This document shows positions 4,842 through 18,903 of a stretch of 20,423 bases of DNA, in pieces; within the stretch, counting starts at the first letter, position 1, and the number at the start of each line of letters is the position of its first letter. Origin of the DNA: a virus. Position numbers and translations under genes: made by a program. Under the pieces are notes generated by a model, which searched no databases, was not told the origin of the DNA, and saw only the letters and a list, made by a program, of their open reading frames with translations. The DNA is taken from IMG/VR virus record IMGVR_UViG_3300042879_001108, positions 1-20,423 of that record; one strand, written 5' to 3'.

Positions 4842-5396
4842 TTAGGAGTTGTTGACTAAGACGTAGCTGAGAGTTTTGGCGTTGTTGCGTTTGAGTTCGG
4901 ACTCGGTGAGGGAAATCAGACCTGACCAACACGGCTCTGGGACGGTAGTGCAGCCCTCCGAGCTGGTAGACCTTTGCGATCCGCGATGGATGTTTATTCC
5001 GAAAAATCCGGTCTCCTCTTGTCCGCCGTCGCGGACGACTGTGACCGGAGCGCTCTGCACCAGAGCGCGGTAAGGGTTGCCGCTCCGAATGCCATGGAGT
5101 CCGAGCTTGTAGGTCCAGACACCGGCCTTGAGGCTGGCGTAGCCCTTTCCGATCTTTGGGTTTTTGCCATAGCGGCTGGGATCGACGTTCGCGTTGAAGG
5201 TGGCGTAAACATCGCCGCCGCTGGACACAAGGATGAGGGCATCGTCATAAAGTCCGCGGTCGTTGAATTTTGTCGGCCCCATCTTTGAGTAGTAGCCGCG
5301 CACCCCAACAAGGCAGACCGGATCGACAACCTTGTGCTTCTTCAAAAGCTCAAGGGTCGCTTCCTTCTTCTGCTTGGGGCGGGCGCTGGGGATCAT
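4842..5396 (-). CDS. Putative L,D-transpeptidase-like (YkuD-type) wall-active protein, candidate endolysin, 184 aa
   Basis: The C-terminal part holds GINIHRG (H137) followed by STSSEGCTT (S146, G148, C149). The spacing and residues match the catalytic H...SxGC motif of the YkuD/L,D-transpeptidase fold, where Cys is the nucleophile and His the base; the usual Arg after SxGC is replaced by Thr-Thr. Earlier blocks VRGYYSKMG, NDRGLYDDAL and ATFNANVDPS are typical of a phage protein group with this ending. There is no signal peptide or membrane segment, so export through a holin would be needed. It directly follows membrane proteins and a lipoprotein in an overlapping chain (TAATG with the previous gene). 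I infer it cuts or remodels peptidoglycan during lysis. It could instead be a wall-modifying virion enzyme. Confidence 0.72.
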   Translation of the reverse strand: MIPSARPKQKKEATLELLKKHKVVDPVCLVGVRGYYSKMGPTKFNDRGLYDDALILVSSGGDVYATFNANVDPSRYGKNPKIGKGYASLKAGVWTYKLGLHGIRSGNPYRALVQSAPVTVVRDGGQEETGFFGINIHRGSQRSTSSEGCTTVPEPCWSGLISLTESELKRNNAKTLSYVLVNNS

Positions 5397-5740
5397 TACT
5401 TGCGAAGTTCAGCCGCGGCTTGTGCCACAGTTACAGGACCGACAAAGCCGTCGAGCTTGAGCTGCGTGCCCTGATTGTAGGCGTTGAGCAGCCTTTGGAT
5501 TTGGGTGCCGTAGGTCTTGATGATGTCGGCTGGCAGTTTGGTCACGGCGATGTCAAGGATGCCCCAGATGATTCCGGCGATGACGGCTTCGTTCACTCCG
5601 AGGGCGCGGATGTCGAGGCCGCTCTTGGTTGCAATGTAGGTCAGCGCGGCAGCGGCGGCGGCGGTGACGAGCTTTTGCAGCAGCGGGCCTCCGCGTGAGA
5701 GGAGCAGCTTGACTAATTGGCGTTCTACGAAAGATTTCAT
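5396..5740 (-). CDS. Holin-like two-span membrane protein with peptidoglycan-binding-like C-terminus, 114 aa
   Basis: The start is the ATG at 5740, which overlaps the TGA of the lipoprotein gene (ATGA); upstream in-frame sequence belongs to that gene. After a basic N-terminus there are two hydrophobic stretches, about residues 24-41 (LVTAAAAAALTYIATKSG) and 51-69 (EAVIAGIIWGILDIAVTKL), giving a holin-like hairpin. Residues 81-114 then read like half of a PG_binding_1 repeat: IQRLLNAYNQG, then L-x-LDGFVGPVT (D97, G98, G101, P102, T104). Such DGxxGPxT motifs bind peptidoglycan in lysins. A membrane protein tethered to the wall, or a holin whose tail aids lysin access, are both possible. Gene order next to the L,D-transpeptidase-like gene supports a lysis role. 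Confidence 0.75.
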   Translation of the reverse strand: MKSFVERQLVKLLLSRGGPLLQKLVTAAAAAALTYIATKSGLDIRALGVNEAVIAGIIWGILDIAVTKLPADIIKTYGTQIQRLLNAYNQGTQLKLDGFVGPVTVAQAAAELRK

Positions 5741-5937
5741 TGTTCGGGCTTTTTCCACTCCTTGTAGGACTGGACGATGTTGTTGATGTTGGGAACGTAG
5801 GTGACCATAATTTTGATGCTGCCCCAGTCGCCCGCTTGCGTCTTCTCGCCGTCCACCGGCGGCAGAGGAATGCTCACGCAGCCACCAAGCATGAGCGTGG
5901 CGGCCAGCGTAATGGCGAAACTCGGGCGGCATTTCAT
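5737..5937 (-). CDS. Small lipoprotein, spanin-like candidate, 66 aa
   Basis: The protein has a short basic start, a hydrophobic core and a lipobox L17-G18-G19-C20, so signal peptidase II cleavage at Cys20 would leave a 47-residue lipoprotein. The mature start, CVSIPLPPVDGE, is proline-rich, which recalls Rz1-type outer-membrane spanins, though it has fewer prolines than classical Rz1. It sits between small membrane proteins and shares a TAATG overlap on one side and ATGA on the other. This implies a host with an outer membrane. I see no separate Rz-like partner with a long periplasmic coiled coil, so the spanin idea is only a candidate. Confidence 0.78.
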   Translation of the reverse strand: MKCRPSFAITLAATLMLGGCVSIPLPPVDGEKTQAGDWGSIKIMVTYVPNINNIVQSYKEWKKPEQ

Positions 5938-6601: not shown

Positions 6602-6808
6602 TTAGGGCTTAATTGCGGCATGGATAAATGTGCCCTCTGTTCCTGTGAAATTCCCTCTGGCGGCGTTGGCTGGCATGTGTGCTTCGACCCTTGCCATGAG
6701 CGCAACATCTGGGGTGGCGACACCTTTGAGACCCGCGCCTATCTGTGCGCCGAATGCGGTGAGCACTTGGCCAGCGTGAGCGGAATTGAGGACGAGGTTG
6801 GTGCTCAT
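6602..6808 (-). CDS. Small phage protein of unknown function, 68 aa
   Basis: The protein is Ala- and Gly-rich (NSAHAGQVLTAFGAQIGAG, later FTGTEGTFIHAAIKP). I do not recognise a family. Support comes from its tight coupling to the LamG-like fibre gene by a TAATG overlap, its strand and its protein-like composition. A competing ORF on the opposite strand is judged to be a shadow. It may be a fibre accessory protein (inference). Confidence 0.65.
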   Translation of the reverse strand: MSTNLVLNSAHAGQVLTAFGAQIGAGLKGVATPDVALMARVEAHMPANAARGNFTGTEGTFIHAAIKP

Positions 6809-8067
6809 TAGGTCGTTAGCTGTTGCAGCAGCGTGTTGCTCAAGCGGCGGGGCCAGTAGGCGATCTTGCGGATGTGGCCGTTGAGATAGCTGGCTGCTCC
6901 TTGGAGCCTTCCCAAAACCATGTGCGTGTTTGCGGAATTCAACGTCACTGACGTATCAGCGGTCGTGAGTGTTCCGTTCACCGCCGACCTTGCGTCATTG
7001 GCAGCAAATGCAGCGGCGATCTTGGCGATAGCTCCAGAAGAAACAGAAACGCCGCCGGTCACCTCTATTACGCCAGATGTCCTATATTGGAAGCTGGCAA
7101 GAGTTCCGGTTGGAGCGAAGAACAAGACGAAACGGTTGTTGGCCGAAGATGCTTCTGCAAATTGAACGATATCAGCGGACTGCGCATAAGTGGCAGGAGC
7201 CTCCGCAAACAACGTTCCCTCGCTCTGATTATAGAAGCTGGAGATCGGCGTGACGACCGCACTGTCCGCTGCGCGGGTGGCGGCGGCGGTGGTCGTCGGG
7301 ATGTAGGACGTGGCGAAGGCGCCTTGCTCTAGCTGCGGGGCGGCTATGCGGAGGGTGAAATTTATGGTGGCGCCGTTCGTGGCCGTGACGCGCAAAACTG
7401 CTGATACTCTTGCCGTTGTAGCATCGGTTAAAGTTCTTGTATGAGAAAATCTTTGCAGCGCCGATGTAAGTGATGAAGCCGTGTTGGTCGTTGAAGCAGT
7501 AACAAATGTTCCGTCTGCCAGTCTTTCCGTAATTCCAATGTTGCAATCTGGAACGCTTCCAGAAATCAGCGCGATATAGGCTGAGTTAGTCCATGTTTGC
7601 CCAGATGATGCCGCTACTTGTGATCCAGACTCGGGATCAAGTGCGATTTGGAACGTCGCCGCTGTCACAATCCCTGAAAACTTGATGTCGATGTAAGCCA
7701 AGCCATTACTTGTTCCGGTTGCGACAATCTCTCTTGTCAGTCCTCCGGCTGTTCCCGTCAGAGGCCAATTCGTCGGAGGCGTCCCCGGCGTTCCAGCCAC
7801 AGCCCCACCAGCCTGCGAGTTGCGGATGCTGTTGGTTCTGGCCTCCTCGATGAGCAGCCCCAAGCTGCTGCCGCCGGAATGGTCGAAGCGGGGGACGTTG
7901 TTGCTGGCCGCTTGCAGCACACCATCTGCATCAAAGTAAGTCGCATCGCTTGCCCGCGTGAAGGTGATCGCGGGGCCGACACCATGATCCAGCGTCTTCA
8001 GTCCGGCAAAGTCGCGGCTGAAGCTCGGCGCTGTCTGCAAAGCGCGTCTGGAAAATGGGAGCGGCAT
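6808..8067 (-). CDS. Tail fibre / receptor-binding protein with LamG-like C-terminal domain, 419 aa
   Basis: About residues 33-80 hold the phage fibre signature ITFTRASDATYFDADGVL...NVPRFDH...LGLLIEEARTN, shared by many adsorption proteins. A central beta-rich region follows, which looks like a carbohydrate-binding module and ends APQLEQGAFATSYIPT. The C-terminal ~140 residues look like a concanavalin A/LamG-type lectin fold (EGTLFAEAP, then NRFVLFF) and finish with YLNGHIRKIAYWPRRLS, a common last strand of this domain. The likely role is binding a surface glycan. It follows the 160-aa structural gene with a six-base gap and no Shine-Dalgarno match. Confidence 0.88.
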   Translation of the reverse strand: MPLPFSRRALQTAPSFSRDFAGLKTLDHGVGPAITFTRASDATYFDADGVLQAASNNVPRFDHSGGSSLGLLIEEARTNSIRNSQAGGAVAGTPGTPPTNWPLTGTAGGLTREIVATGTSNGLAYIDIKFSGIVTAATFQIALDPESGSQVAASSGQTWTNSAYIALISGSVPDCNIGITERLADGTFVTASTTNTASSLTSALQRFSHTRTLTDATTARVSAVLRVTATNGATINFTLRIAAPQLEQGAFATSYIPTTTAAATRAADSAVVTPISSFYNQSEGTLFAEAPATYAQSADIVQFAEASSANNRFVLFFAPTGTLASFQYRTSGVIEVTGGVSVSSGAIAKIAAAFAANDARSAVNGTLTTADTSVTLNSANTHMVLGRLQGAASYLNGHIRKIAYWPRRLSNTLLQQLTT

Positions 8068-9212: not shown

Positions 9213-9228
9213 CACTAAGGCACTAAGG
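9213..9228. repeat. Perfect tandem 8-bp repeat (CACTAAGG x2)
   Basis: Two abutting copies of CACTAAGG on the plus strand read CCTTAGTG twice on the coding strand. They cover the stop of the secreted 129-aa gene and end a few bases before the GTG of the connector gene. Such units resemble short dispersed repeats of some environmental bacterial genomes. Confidence 0.7.
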
Positions 9229-9612
9229 GGCTGCAACGGGTTCGGGCAGCGGGGTGATGGTGACGGTGTCGCCGGACCAGACCCATTCGCGGGTGCGGGT
9301 TTCGGGGGCGCGGACGCTGCTGCCGCCGGCGGCGAGGATCTGGTTGATGCCGGTGGCGCTGCTGACGTAGAGCGTGAGGAGTTGTTCGCTTTGCGCGTCG
9401 CCGAGGCGTTCGAGGACGGACTTGAGCGTGGCGTCATCAAGGCCGAAGATTTTGGCGTGCAGTGTGCTGAGGCTTTGCGCGTAGAGTTCGCCGTAGTAGC
9501 GGCTGGCTGCGGCGGCGCGGTCAATGTCGCTCAATGCACGTTCGGCGGGCGTGACTGGCAGAAGTTGCGCGTGGGCGCTGGCGGCGAGGAGGAGGATGAG
9601 GAGATGTTTCAT
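9223..9612 (-). CDS. Exported small protein with signal peptide, 129 aa
   Basis: The protein opens MKHLLILLLAASAHAQ, a textbook signal peptide with AHA before Q16 for signal peptidase I, and there is no lipobox. The mature part is helical for about 80 residues (PAERALSDIDRAAAASRYYG, later LKSVLERLGDAQSEQLL), then ends in a short beta-like REWVWSGDTVTITPLP. I do not recognise a family. Export by a phage suggests action in the host envelope, for example superinfection control or lysis timing, although similar proteins are seen in tail modules without known role. The ATG is four bases past the fibre gene's TAA. Confidence 0.78.
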   Translation of the reverse strand: MKHLLILLLAASAHAQLLPVTPAERALSDIDRAAAASRYYGELYAQSLSTLHAKIFGLDDATLKSVLERLGDAQSEQLLTLYVSSATGINQILAAGGSSVRAPETRTREWVWSGDTVTITPLPEPVAAP

Positions 9613-9616
9613 AAGT

Positions 9617-10780
9617 TTAGGGAGCCATTTTGGTGACGGAGAGCATTGACGATTGGATAAGCGTTGTGGCGTCTGCCACGTTGCTTATCGGATACCAACG
9701 GTAGTTCATGGTGTTTGCGTTGCTGCTGGTTAGCACATAGACAAAGCCCGCCACGGCGAATCGGCTTCCTGTGCCTGTAGCCGTGCCGCTGGGAAGCGCA
9801 AACGATGTTACATTCGTGCCAGAAGTAATCGCCGTCACCGTAGCGTTCGCGGCTTGGCCCACGCCACTGCGATGGTTGAATTCTGAAAGATTGGTTGTGA
9901 AACCCAACCCGTGGCTGAATCCAGAGTTGGTCGTGGCGACCCATGCAACGGCGTATTCGATGCGATAAAAACTGTTAGCATCGAGCGCCCACGATCCCAT
10001 CTGTGGATCGTTGTTGGTAGCTTGATTACCAACATTGAAACCCCAGTTCGTTTTGGTTTGGTCGTTGGTGGTGAAGCGTGTGACCGTGCGGCTAACAACG
10101 AAGGACGAACCTCCTGCGCCGTCTGCGGTGAGCAGCGCACCATTGGCGGCGGCTCCGCTAGGCGGGTTGCCTGCGGTCAGGGCGCCGTTAGTGCCGATGA
10201 TGGCGGTGCGGGAGTTGGCGTTGGTGAGCGGGGCGACGCGGAGGTTGTTGCTCCAGACGAGTTCGTTGGTGCGGCGGGTGACGATGTTGCCGTTGGTGTC
10301 GCTGACGAGGCCGATGTTTTGCGCCATGGCCGAGCTGGCCATGAGGGCGGCGAGCACGATGGCGGAGAGGGCAAAGGCTACCGAGCGGACGACGCTGTCG
10401 GTGCCGGTGACTTTGAAGGTGAGCGTTTCGTTGTCGGTGATTTCTACTTGCATGCTGCGGGTTGGGGCGCCGTCGTCGTAGATGACGAATGCTGCGTCTG
10501 ACATAACATCGTGGAAGGACGTGTCGGTGAGCTGGTAGTCGTTGTCGCGGGAGGCGCCGACAATGGCTTTACGCACATACACGCCAGCCTGTTTGTAGGA
10601 GCTGAAGGGCCACGTTCCGGAATTCGAGCGGACGAGCCAGCGGCTATCCAATGCGGCCGATCCGTCGAGCGGGAGGTCCGCATAGGTTGCCACTTCGCCT
10701 GCGAAGAACGCAGAGCCGCCGCCTCCGCCAGAACCTTTCTGGTCGAAGTTGCCGGTGAACGGATTGAAGGCGAAGCCCAT
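9617..10780 (-). CDS. Tail fibre protein with internal signal-peptide-like segment, 387 aa
   Basis: The N-terminus MGFAFNPFTGNFDQKGSGGG is a well-known tail-attachment segment of phage fibres, followed by ATYADLPLDG and SRWLVRSNSGTWPFSSYKQAG. Around residues 133-153 a hydrophobic run ends ASSAMAQ, exactly like a signal peptide with an AMA cleavage site, though it lies in mid-protein. From there a new fibre-like module begins (NIGLVSDTNGNIVTRRTNE) and leads to an Asn/Thr-rich beta region and a C-terminal WALDANSFYRIEYAVAW-type domain. This looks like an in-frame fusion of a fibre base with a once-exported protein. The start is the ATG at 10780; no Shine-Dalgarno site is seen in its AT-rich leader. 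Confidence 0.85.
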   Translation of the reverse strand: MGFAFNPFTGNFDQKGSGGGGGSAFFAGEVATYADLPLDGSAALDSRWLVRSNSGTWPFSSYKQAGVYVRKAIVGASRDNDYQLTDTSFHDVMSDAAFVIYDDGAPTRSMQVEITDNETLTFKVTGTDSVVRSVAFALSAIVLAALMASSAMAQNIGLVSDTNGNIVTRRTNELVWSNNLRVAPLTNANSRTAIIGTNGALTAGNPPSGAAANGALLTADGAGGSSFVVSRTVTRFTTNDQTKTNWGFNVGNQATNNDPQMGSWALDANSFYRIEYAVAWVATTNSGFSHGLGFTTNLSEFNHRSGVGQAANATVTAITSGTNVTSFALPSGTATGTGSRFAVAGFVYVLTSSNANTMNYRWYPISNVADATTLIQSSMLSVTKMAP

Positions 10781-10801: not shown

Positions 10802-11020
10802 TTAAGAGCGGGTGACGGCAGCGAGGTCCGCGTCGTTGGTGGTCGGCGGGTTGGTCGTGTAGGAGAAGGTCAAAGTTGCGACTGTTTGGCCTCCGCTGCC
10901 GCCTTCTTTGTAGGTAACTGTCTGGATGTTGTTCGTGCTGCTGTAATACGAGATGCTGAGATAGTCGTGCTGCGGGATATTTAATCCGGCCACGTTCCTG
11001 ACGTTGATGTTCGGGTGCAT
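10802..11020 (-). CDS. Small tail-associated protein, 72 aa
   Basis: The protein reads MHPNINVRNVAGLNIPQHDYLSI and later TVTYKEGGSGGQTVATLTFSY. This pattern, 'HDY', then 'TVTYKxGGxxGxxVATLT', is common for short proteins coded just before tail fibre genes in podovirus-like and siphovirus-like phages; no function is established. It lies between the portal and the MGFAFNPFTGNFDQ fibre, four bases after the portal stop. The leader has no clear Shine-Dalgarno site. It probably forms a small beta domain in the tail or fibre base. Confidence 0.78.
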   Translation of the reverse strand: MHPNINVRNVAGLNIPQHDYLSISYYSSTNNIQTVTYKEGGSGGQTVATLTFSYTTNPPTTNDADLAAVTRS

Positions 11021-14018: not shown

Positions 14019-15035
14019 TTAAGCAGTCGCGGCGAACTTGCCGAGTCCCTTGGGCGTGCCAACGCTCAACGCCACGATGGCGTCAACGAGGCCGCGAGGA
14101 CCGCCGCCCATGTCTTCCAGCTCCTGATAGCGGGGCCGGCGACCGTAGCGCAGTTCGATCATGCTCATGTCGAGGACGTAGCCACGCGCGTTTTGCACAT
14201 CGGCGCTCGCGTTGTCCTTCGCAAGAAACAGCGAGGGCAACAGGCTCAACGATCCGAAATCACCTTCAAAGAAGTTGACAACGGAGATGATGGATTTGCT
14301 GTCGGCGCTGTTGGTGAACGTGCGAACGCTCAGTCCGGCACCGGCAGAGCCTGTGCTGAAGCGAGTGAACTCGGTGAACTTGCGCTTGAGGGCAGGGCCG
14401 CAAACGAGGGTCAGTTCGGCAACATTGCCTGTCTGAGTGTAGATGCTCTGCAAGAGCGACTGAACTTCGGACTCGGTGAGCGAGGCGGTCGCGGTCGTAT
14501 TGATCGAACCGGCAGGGGTGCGCTGAGATGAAGCAACGGCCAGATCGCTCTGGGCGGTCGCCTGAATCCACTTGCCCAAGCCACGGGTCTTATACGGCGA
14601 TGCGCCGCTCTGCTCCTGAGACTCGGCATCGGACGAGATGACCGACTCAATATCCCTTTTAATTTCGACCAACGAGCGCGAAATCGCGCGGGCCATTTCC
14701 TTGCGTTTTCCAACGCCGGCCGTGTCGTTGACGTTCTGAACGAAGTCATCGACCTTGATGCTGCGGCGAAGTTTCTGCCCGCGAGCCGAGAGAAGAACGC
14801 GGTTCTTCGTCGGGTCATCGAAGCTGGTGACATCGGCGTTACTGAGAACACCGTCGAGGACGGGCTCGTTATACGAATCAGCTTGGTAGCTGAAAACGCC
14901 GGCATTGGTGAGGTCCGCGCCTTTCTTGGCGGCAGACGAGATGGGGGTGTTTTTGGCGTCGATGACGTGAATGACATCGGCAAGGTCTTCCCTGAGACCC
15001 GTGACTGGAGTGATAGCTCCGATTGTAGAAGGCAT
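14019..15035 (-). CDS. Major capsid protein, SU10 / DUF5309 type, 338 aa
   Basis: The N-terminus has GLREDLADVIHVIDAKNTPISSAAKKG, the hallmark opening of SU10-like (DUF5309) major capsid proteins, which adopt the HK97 fold. It continues with FSYQADSYNEP, a long helix region with SLVEIKRDIESVI (around 120-132), and a later block YVLDMSMIELRYGRRPRYQELEDMGG. Length is normal for the family. It follows the scaffold-like gene by 25 bases. The leader is A-rich and has no Shine-Dalgarno match, which is surprising for the most abundant virion protein. SU10 and its relatives have elongated heads on short tails, so this virion may too (inference). Confidence 0.92.
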   Translation of the reverse strand: MPSTIGAITPVTGLREDLADVIHVIDAKNTPISSAAKKGADLTNAGVFSYQADSYNEPVLDGVLSNADVTSFDDPTKNRVLLSARGQKLRRSIKVDDFVQNVNDTAGVGKRKEMARAISRSLVEIKRDIESVISSDAESQEQSGASPYKTRGLGKWIQATAQSDLAVASSQRTPAGSINTTATASLTESEVQSLLQSIYTQTGNVAELTLVCGPALKRKFTEFTRFSTGSAGAGLSVRTFTNSADSKSIISVVNFFEGDFGSLSLLPSLFLAKDNASADVQNARGYVLDMSMIELRYGRRPRYQELEDMGGGPRGLVDAIVALSVGTPKGLGKFAATA

Positions 15036-17253: not shown

Positions 17254-18903
17254 TCAGTAGCTCCCGCCACCACGGCACATAAGTATGTCACCCTCCACGT
17301 TGTTGACGCCGGACAGGCACAAGTAGCGGACAAGGTCAGGGAAATCCTTACTCGCGCCCTTGGTAGAATCCGCACCCGTCCACTCCTTGAGGCAGTAGAT
17401 GACGTTCTTGCACTTCTCCGAGATGTAGAGCTTCGGTTGGTTGAGGGCGCTGAGAGGCTTGTCCCGGTCATAGTGCAGCCATGAGTTAATCATGCTGACA
17501 CCTTCATCAATCGTGTCGCCGGGTGTTGCTTGGAAGTCCATGCCCAGCTCTGCCATCTCTTCGATGAGCGTGGTCGGCCGCTCTTTGGCCAAGGTCTGCG
17601 CGTTGCCGTAGCGGCTGTCCATCCATCTCTCAAAGATGCGCTCGCCGTTCTCCACGTTGCGAATCTCTTCGACATAGCGCGACAGGCCAAAGCCGAAGTC
17701 TTTCTGCGCCGGCCCTTGGCGCCCATCTGCCTTCTTGCCGTCCGGCTCTGCCCACATGCCGGGATAGCCAACCCCTTCGACATACTCGTCGGGGCAGGGC
17801 CATTCGCGGTATATGAAGCAACGGTTGGCCGAATCAAAGATTGCCCAGATCATCGCCCAATTACGGCCAGAGCAGGGATCGACAAAGTGGTAGCGGGTGC
17901 CGGTTGTCGGAATCCAATCGTGCTTGATGACGTGGATGCGGTCGTTGAATAGCGGGAAGCGGTTGTTGATGCTTCGCGTTGGGACGCCGTAGGCGCGGCA
18001 GAGAATCTTCTCCTTGGTCTCGTTGCGCAGCTCCATCTGCATGCGCTCCCAGCCGGCCCATGGGTTGTCCTTGGTATGAAAGTAAATGATCGGGCGATCC
18101 TTGCGCCCCATCTGGACGATGGGCACTTGGTCGTATCCGGTGAGGATCTTCTCGCCCTTGTCATCCTTGAACTTGGGAAGCAGCTCGGCATCGACCGCTT
18201 CCACCGTGCGGGCGCCGGTCAGGTAGTCTTTGACCACCGGACTGTAGCCTTCGATGGGCGTGAACGTGACGATTAGGACGCCGTTGCGGTCAAGCAGACG
18301 AAAGCGCAGAGTTTCTAGAAAGTCGATTGGGACAAGCTCATCGCACCAAGCAATGTCGATTTCCCCGCCCTCGATTGTGCTGATGTCCTGTGAATAATTG
18401 CGAAAGACGCACTGGCTGCCATTGGGGGCGACGAACTTAGATTCGGTAAAGCCACCTTTGACCGAGTAGGTTATGTTCGTCACCGTTCCCTTGCGTGCCG
18501 TTCTCCACTCGCCGGGGAGATACTTGAACACTCGCGGCTGCTGCATTTCGATGCTGTTGGGCGCCGTAGTTTGGAAGCACCATGCGACAGACTGGCGCTT
18601 CTCCCAAAGCCGGCGGACCACTTCACTTGCTGCCCATTCAGTCTTTCCCGATCTGTTGCCGCCCATGACTAGCAGTTCACGGTTGGCTTCTAACAGTTCA
18701 CTCGCCTTCTTCCAGTTCTTCGGCCGGTAGCCGTAGCGGAACGGATCAACCTTCTCCTTGAGGATTAACTCCTCGCGCTTCATCAAAAGGTCCCAGCCTT
18801 TCTCCGGTCCAAGGGCGAGCAAGGTCTCCTTGGGCGGGAGCTTCATCACCGGATGCACAGTCGGCGTGAAGCGGCTGGCGGCGGACTTGGGTTTGGCGCT
18901 CAT
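17254..18903 (-). CDS. terL: Terminase large subunit, 549 aa
   Basis: This is the ATPase-nuclease motor that packages DNA through the portal. Walker A is GGNRSGKT (81-88), Walker B IDIAWCDE (182-189, with D188 and catalytic E189), and a coupling motif TFTPIEGY follows at 213-220. The nuclease half starts with a YHFVDPCSG strand (D342), with further acidic candidates at D429 (RWMDSRYG) and D523 (DFPDLVRYL), as in RNase H-like terminase nucleases. Length is normal. The ATG at 18903 lies three bases after an in-frame-independent TAG and has no Shine-Dalgarno site. No small terminase is recognised among the genes just upstream; it may lie beyond the window. Confidence 0.96.
   Translation of the reverse strand: MSAKPKSAASRFTPTVHPVMKLPPKETLLALGPEKGWDLLMKREELILKEKVDPFRYGYRPKNWKKASELLEANRELLVMGGNRSGKTEWAASEVVRRLWEKRQSVAWCFQTTAPNSIEMQQPRVFKYLPGEWRTARKGTVTNITYSVKGGFTESKFVAPNGSQCVFRNYSQDISTIEGGEIDIAWCDELVPIDFLETLRFRLLDRNGVLIVTFTPIEGYSPVVKDYLTGARTVEAVDAELLPKFKDDKGEKILTGYDQVPIVQMGRKDRPIIYFHTKDNPWAGWERMQMELRNETKEKILCRAYGVPTRSINNRFPLFNDRIHVIKHDWIPTTGTRYHFVDPCSGRNWAMIWAIFDSANRCFIYREWPCPDEYVEGVGYPGMWAEPDGKKADGRQGPAQKDFGFGLSRYVEEIRNVENGERIFERWMDSRYGNAQTLAKERPTTLIEEMAELGMDFQATPGDTIDEGVSMINSWLHYDRDKPLSALNQPKLYISEKCKNVIYCLKEWTGADSTKGASKDFPDLVRYLCLSGVNNVEGDILMCRGGGSY

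Follow-up and report, generated by a model that had tools for sequence, protein, structure and literature searches.

A fibre-like gene of an uncultivated phage with an internal, signal-peptide-like segment at an apparent gene fusion junction

The locus and its genes

The DNA analysed here, hereafter the window, is a stretch of 20,423 nucleotides from the IMG/VR virus record IMGVR_UViG_3300042879_001108. At positions 9617..10780, on the minus strand, it carries a fused fibre-like gene (P0001) that encodes 387 amino acids. This gene comes after a probable portal gene (749 aa), which has no PHROG or Pfam match and is named from its size and position, and a 72-aa gene matched to phrog_26903 (10802..11020, minus). 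The latter sits just upstream of the fibre gene and holds the same position in five of the related loci, which are given L-numbers here (L005, L008, L014, L017, and L018). The fibre gene, an SU10-type capsid protein, and the terminase all lie on one strand, and the fibre is therefore encoded among virion genes. The capsid and terminase genes (14019-15035 and 17254-18903, minus) find their best isolated-phage match in Phage C75C1, at about 31% and 34% identity; this phage has no host on record, and its examined fibre-region genes are without the hydrophobic segment described below.

The fibre-like protein is built of successive modules. Residues 1-105 (10466..10780, minus), which begin MGFAFNPFTGNFD, form an N-terminal fibre module common to 40 fibres without a signal segment (L021-L060). 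The LTFKVTGTDSVVRS module that follows (residues 106-139; 10364..10465, minus) was once a C-terminus, as comparison with Sinorhizobium phage AP-16-3 indicates. An internal signal-peptide-like run, residues 133-153 (10322..10384, minus), ends in AMA and is bounded by Arg132 and Gln154. Beyond it lie the NIGLVSDTNGN middle module (residues 154-227; 10100..10321, minus), which is kept in fused relatives and modelled mostly at low confidence, and a C1q/TNF-like beta head recognised with AlphaFold2 and Foldseek, the probable receptor-binding end (residues 228-387; 9620..10099, minus). Four nucleotides past the fibre stop is a 129-aa partner gene (9223..9612, minus) with its own N-terminal signal peptide, MKHLLILLLAASAHA, followed by Gln.

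Searches of PHROGs and Pfam returned nothing for the fibre or the partner, the L020 partner included, apart from one sub-cutoff chance match. Isolated phages yielded no relative of the window protein, the L020 fused protein, or the 129-aa partner, and two scans of genome contigs found no relative. A protein of cyanophage KBS-S-2A begins MAIKFNPFTGNLD, which can be compared with the N-terminal module of the window.

The internal hydrophobic segment

A preliminary description of this DNA had singled out a hydrophobic run at residues 133-153 ending AMA-Q, and this run is real. Checked codon by codon, residues 130-154 read VVR-SVAFALSAIVLAALMASSAMA-Q, that is, Arg132, a charge-free run with a mean Kyte-Doolittle value of 2.0 over 21 residues, and Gln154. 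The run is the hydrophobicity peak of the window protein (best 17-aa window 2.26), while the per-protein 17-aa maximum in the 40 related fibres without the segment has a median of 1.14 and a highest value of 1.90. It displays the features of a Sec signal cut by signal peptidase I, namely a positive residue before the run, an uncharged core, and small residues at -3 and -1 (AMA), but not the usual N-terminal location, since it begins at residue 133. The Gln at +1 (Gln154) additionally gives it the Q-rule feature.

A scan with fixed rules (a hydrophobic run after a positive residue, with small residues at -3/-1 and a Gln at +1) was applied to 1348 distinct open reading frames from the window and the loci of its relatives. 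It returned 21 internal matches, 18 of which were classed by motif as belonging to the fibre family of the window, and the other three resemble chance.

Fused relatives and exchangeable modules

The first relative search with the window protein gave 60 loci. In 40 of these (L021-L060), the N-terminal module alone matches, a different sequence comes after it, and the segment is present in none. Conversely, L009-L013 match only from residue 128 onward, with 78-80% identity, behind an unrelated long fibre. The segment and the C-terminal half thus constitute a portable unit.

The internal segment was found on 29 IMG/VR contigs, 16 with a window-type N-terminal module and 13 with a TKG...TRWR module; the two modules are unrelated to each other. 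One of the relatives (L001) matches the window protein at 100% identity and possibly represents the same virus, and the L195 fibre, cut at the contig edge, was left out of the counts. There are 13 distinct internal segments. Five are window-type and eight are TRWR-type (L009-L013 as one, L020, L075, L076, L091, L156, L178, and L182/L183), and all 13 consist of Arg, a hydrophobic run, [AGS]-x-A, and then Gln.

Origin by fusion of neighbouring genes

It had been suggested in the preliminary description that two genes were fused here, the second with its own signal peptide, and that homologues with the two halves as separate genes should be sought. Such homologues occur on four contigs (L164, L179, L180, and L181), where the two genes overlap in ATGA. 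The upstream fibre of these unfused pairs ends ...GxLSSTKL*, and the downstream fibre opens with an N-terminal signal peptide, MIKYLIAILLTASAAYS-Q. In L164, for example, the upstream fibre has 518 aa and ends ...TKGYILKSPNNSRWRITIDNDGILSSTKL. The stop codon of its gene overlaps (ATGA) with the first codon of a 341-aa gene that begins MIKYLIAILLTASAAYSQTIKTLGYNTTNG, and a partner gene of the 129-aa type comes after the 341-aa gene.

The fused protein of L020 (P0004) aligns end to end with this unfused L164 pair, and the joint lies at the old stop. The first L164 protein (P0013) shares 69% identity with the N-terminal part of P0004 over 86 aa, a match that runs to the very end of P0013. The second (P0014) can be aligned with P0004 from a point within the signal through to the last residue (34%, E=2e-28). 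The C-terminal half of the window protein also matches P0014, with 34% identity over 214 columns (E=2e-18).

The modules on the N-terminal side can be found as natural protein ends. Five isolated phages (S-CREM2, Klevey, S-B68, VP-HS15, and S-SRM01) have a protein that ends with the TRWR module, and the LTFKV...VVRS module of the window is the C-terminus in AP-16-3, whose protein ends SNTSLTFKVKGSDGVVRSGSVTLA-stop, compared with DNETLTFKVTGTDSVVRSVAFALS in the window. As both modules are C-terminal in isolated phages, both kinds of fusion sit at an old stop codon. This reflects either two separate fusions or a single one with later exchange of the N-terminal part. Together, these comparisons essentially show that two neighbouring genes, the second with a signal peptide, were joined at the old stop of the first. 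An assembly artefact was rejected because the junction recurs in many contigs that come from different metagenomes, and an out-of-frame reading because the relatives keep the frame.

Alignment with the isolated phages and the unfused relatives places the old stop after about residue 139. The run had been described as lying after the first fibre module and before the second. It does lie at the module junction, but the boundary cuts through it (~139/140), the first protein contributing residues 133-139 and the second about 140-153. Because the segment stands at the junction of exchangeable modules, it is not the conserved helix of a single-domain fibre, which the preliminary description had named as the observation that would speak against a fusion.

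The partner gene

The partner gene lies directly downstream of the fused fibre in 24 of the 26 contigs in which this could be assessed, a set that excludes L019, L064, and L076, which are cut. Its distance from the end of the fused fibre is 0-5 nt in 21 loci; for L178, L182, and L183, it falls in this range or the two genes overlap by 4 nt. The fused contigs that lack the partner are L075 and L091. Of the 40 fibres that do not have the segment, 37 are followed by enough DNA for the comparison, and the partner was found after none of the 37 (0/37), nor after the other three. This distribution shows that the C-terminal half and the partner gene travel as a two-gene unit.

The predicted model of the 129-aa partner combines a helical hairpin with a beta-hairpin (mean pLDDT 86.9) and has no PDB fold match at E<=0.001.

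A separate observation concerns L001 and L009, which belong to otherwise different phage lineages and share 85% DNA identity over the C-terminal half and the partner gene. From this identity it follows that the two-gene unit moved between the two lineages.

Conservation of the segment

Across all loci collected, only two kinds of sequence come after the TRWR module: eight distinct ones reach a stop within 5-6 residues, and seven distinct ones continue into a signal-like segment. All seven signal-followed sequences, and L076 as well, carry an Arg at the second residue after GxL, which none of the eight stop-followed ones has, although this gain may reflect shared descent, which limits its weight. 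The corresponding Arg of the window-type fibres is no evidence of selection, because it is native there (AP-16-3 also has VVRS).

Comparison of L009 with L075 reveals 14 differences among the 54 nucleotides of the segment and only two among its 18 amino acids. In closer pairs, the segment has a dN of 0.05-0.15, with dS saturated or above 1, and random drift simulated at the observed distances kept the signal-like features in 0.15-3.2% of runs. Between L009 and L091, dN reaches 0.46 in the segment versus 0.20 in the module ahead of it; the letters drift and the features stay. Such faster change is as expected for a signal peptide, and also for a loosely constrained helix. At the level of sequence, these patterns show a segment under constraint that has been kept through evolution. 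This selection is the one line of support for the suggestion in the preliminary description that the segment might anchor or cleave the fibre.

Predicted structure

The AlphaFold2 model of the window protein was built from 20 sequences and has a mean pLDDT of 65.8. It places beta structure in residues 1-125, with low to moderate confidence for the N-terminal module, a helix spanning 129-147 with a pLDDT of about 50 and beta regions on either side, and a beta head at 228-387 (pLDDT about 72-92 in 10-residue blocks); residues 168-227 are poorly predicted. Foldseek matches of the head include phage tail fibres (models), C1q/TNF domains, and the CBD of the short tail fibre of cyanophage A-1(L) (8ke9). 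The latter shares the beta-head fold of the window protein (Foldseek probability 1.00, TMt 0.42) but only 10% identity. On the strength of this model, the window protein probably has a receptor-binding-type C-terminal head.

Interpretation

The reading preferred here, with a probability of roughly 0.5, is that the gene is a stop-codon-loss chimera whose trapped signal still works and is cut by signal peptidase, making it a small polyprotein. We infer the export, the cleavage, and the role of the exported head as follows. The stop codon between two coupled phage genes was lost, the first gene encoding a fibre that attaches or forms a shaft and the second a presumably exported fibre head with a Sec signal peptide, travelling with a second exported protein. 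With the fusion at the old stop, the signal peptide was therefore trapped inside the chimera, where it has been kept. During infection, the host Sec machinery would take up the hydrophobic run while the N-terminal half stays in the cytoplasm. Signal peptidase I would then cut before Gln154, releasing the C1q-like head into the periplasm beside the co-exported 129-aa partner, and the N-terminal half would retain the signal as a membrane tail. The exported head could perhaps occupy the receptor outside the infected cell. That a dsDNA phage holds a virion fibre and an exported head in one chain, split by host signal peptidase as a polyprotein in the manner of some animal RNA viruses, and does so within a phage group with several exported fibre-like proteins encoded at its fibre locus, is put forward more tentatively, at slightly short of even odds; in keeping with it, an internal signal lies between two products that are separate in relatives. 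Across the fused proteins, about 130 to 730 residues precede the internal signal, a position that is unusual in bacterial Sec export.

The main rival is a fibre that is never cut, in which the run is a structural helix, such as a trimeric neck, linking the head with the N-terminal module, and the virion carries the protein in full. This is the strongest of the alternatives, yet it remains doubtful. The AlphaFold2 model does place the helix at 129-147 between two beta regions, and the head resembles phage receptor-binding heads. The halves are neighbours whether fused or unfused and may act together, and fusion partners often share one assembly (the Rosetta-stone argument), which would give a shaft-plus-head fibre. 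However, the pLDDT of this helix is only about 50, and the run is without the polar face that helices of soluble trimers usually have. Small residues at -3/-1 and an invariant Gln at +1 would be unexpected in a neck helix, and unfused relatives have this segment as an ordinary signal peptide at the N-terminus. Alternatively, the segment could be a passenger, a functionless leftover of fusion that is tolerated since the head folds anyway. Fusion through a stop codon automatically brings along the signal of the next gene, and most window-type copies are close kin (11 of 16 carry an identical segment). Set against this, change in L009, L075, and L156 is mostly synonymous and the signal-like features persist across 13 distinct versions, making a passenger improbable. 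Lastly, a second start site within the gene might allow the second half to be made separately as well, the segment then serving as a normal signal peptide at its N-terminus, as the second gene of unfused relatives does start with ATG at this place. In the window, there is no ATG, GTG, or TTG from Met112 to the hydrophobic run, and the sole starts inside the run (GTG at 142 and ATG at 147) would delete most of it. With no suitable codon, an internal start was rejected, and two start sites are highly improbable.

Comparison with known systems

In Bacteroidetes, substrates of signal peptidase I follow a Q-rule, with Gln at +1 (PMC5837995; PMC10653852). The +1 Gln of the segment fits this rule. 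A Sec-type signal with a +1 Gln, as in such substrates, is present in the fibre segments, in the large fibres described below, and in the partner protein. The segment of the window differs in being internal; the G+C of the window is 0.584. Porphyromonas gingivalis phages encode separate signal-peptide genes that obey the Q-rule and are thought to use host secretion (PMC10367356). They resemble the window in having phage-encoded signal peptides with a +1 Gln, whereas their genes are separate and of unknown function, and the portion of that account considered here describes no fused fibre with an internal signal. The polyproteins of pestiviruses and flaviviruses contain internal signals that are cut by host signal peptidase (PMC8002126, PMC8274601). 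The likeness is one of logic, with one translation product, an internal signal, and host signal peptidase; unlike the window virus, these are animal RNA viruses with demonstrated processing, which is here a prediction. Searches of open-licence literature listed no paper about a phage fibre carrying an internal signal peptide, or about cleavage of a phage polyprotein by signal peptidase.

As a rule, phages assemble their fibres in the cytoplasm, where they stay until lysis. The group of uncultivated phages described here encodes fibre-like proteins with conserved export signals, either N-terminal or, after fusion, internal. Either fibre heads are exported before lysis, to block receptors or for some action outside the cell, or the fibre has taken over a signal peptide as one of its parts. 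The fused and unfused forms, side by side, are a clear example of coupled genes becoming one.

Other signal-bearing fibres and candidate tail genes

A larger second fibre of the related phages, located between the probable terminase and the probable portal gene (names based on size and position), has an N-terminal signal peptide with a +1 Gln in 76 of 79 loci and in 30 distinct strings, as counted with a pattern that itself demands Gln. One example reads MKYILSLIISGALVVSGFG-Q TRNVLVGTNN. Among the remaining three, L130 is truncated within the signal by the end of its contig, and the signals of L152 and L164 are divergent.

Further fibre-like genes with an N-terminal signal peptide and a +1 Gln lie near the tail genes of related phages (L164:7938-9230, L161:14748-15773, L148:16476-17051, L160:3172-4860, L132:15058-15435, L151:14826-15179, and L143:9118-9924). 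In L132, L143, and L151, the start of the signal-first gene overlaps the stop of the upstream gene. The L151 gene matches the window protein weakly (E=0.002) and, for this reason, was not counted as a close relative. Given the unfused pairs and these other signal-first fibres, a fibre gene coupled to a predicted-exported fibre-like gene seems to be the ordinary state in the group.

Elsewhere in the window, a 66-aa open reading frame (5737-5937, minus) has a lipoprotein-type start, MKCRPSFAITLAATLMLGGC..., overlaps the 5396-5932 open reading frame, and is possibly part of a spanin. A 419-aa tail protein (6808-8067, minus) contains a Laminin_G_3/ConA-like lectin domain and is a second candidate receptor binder.
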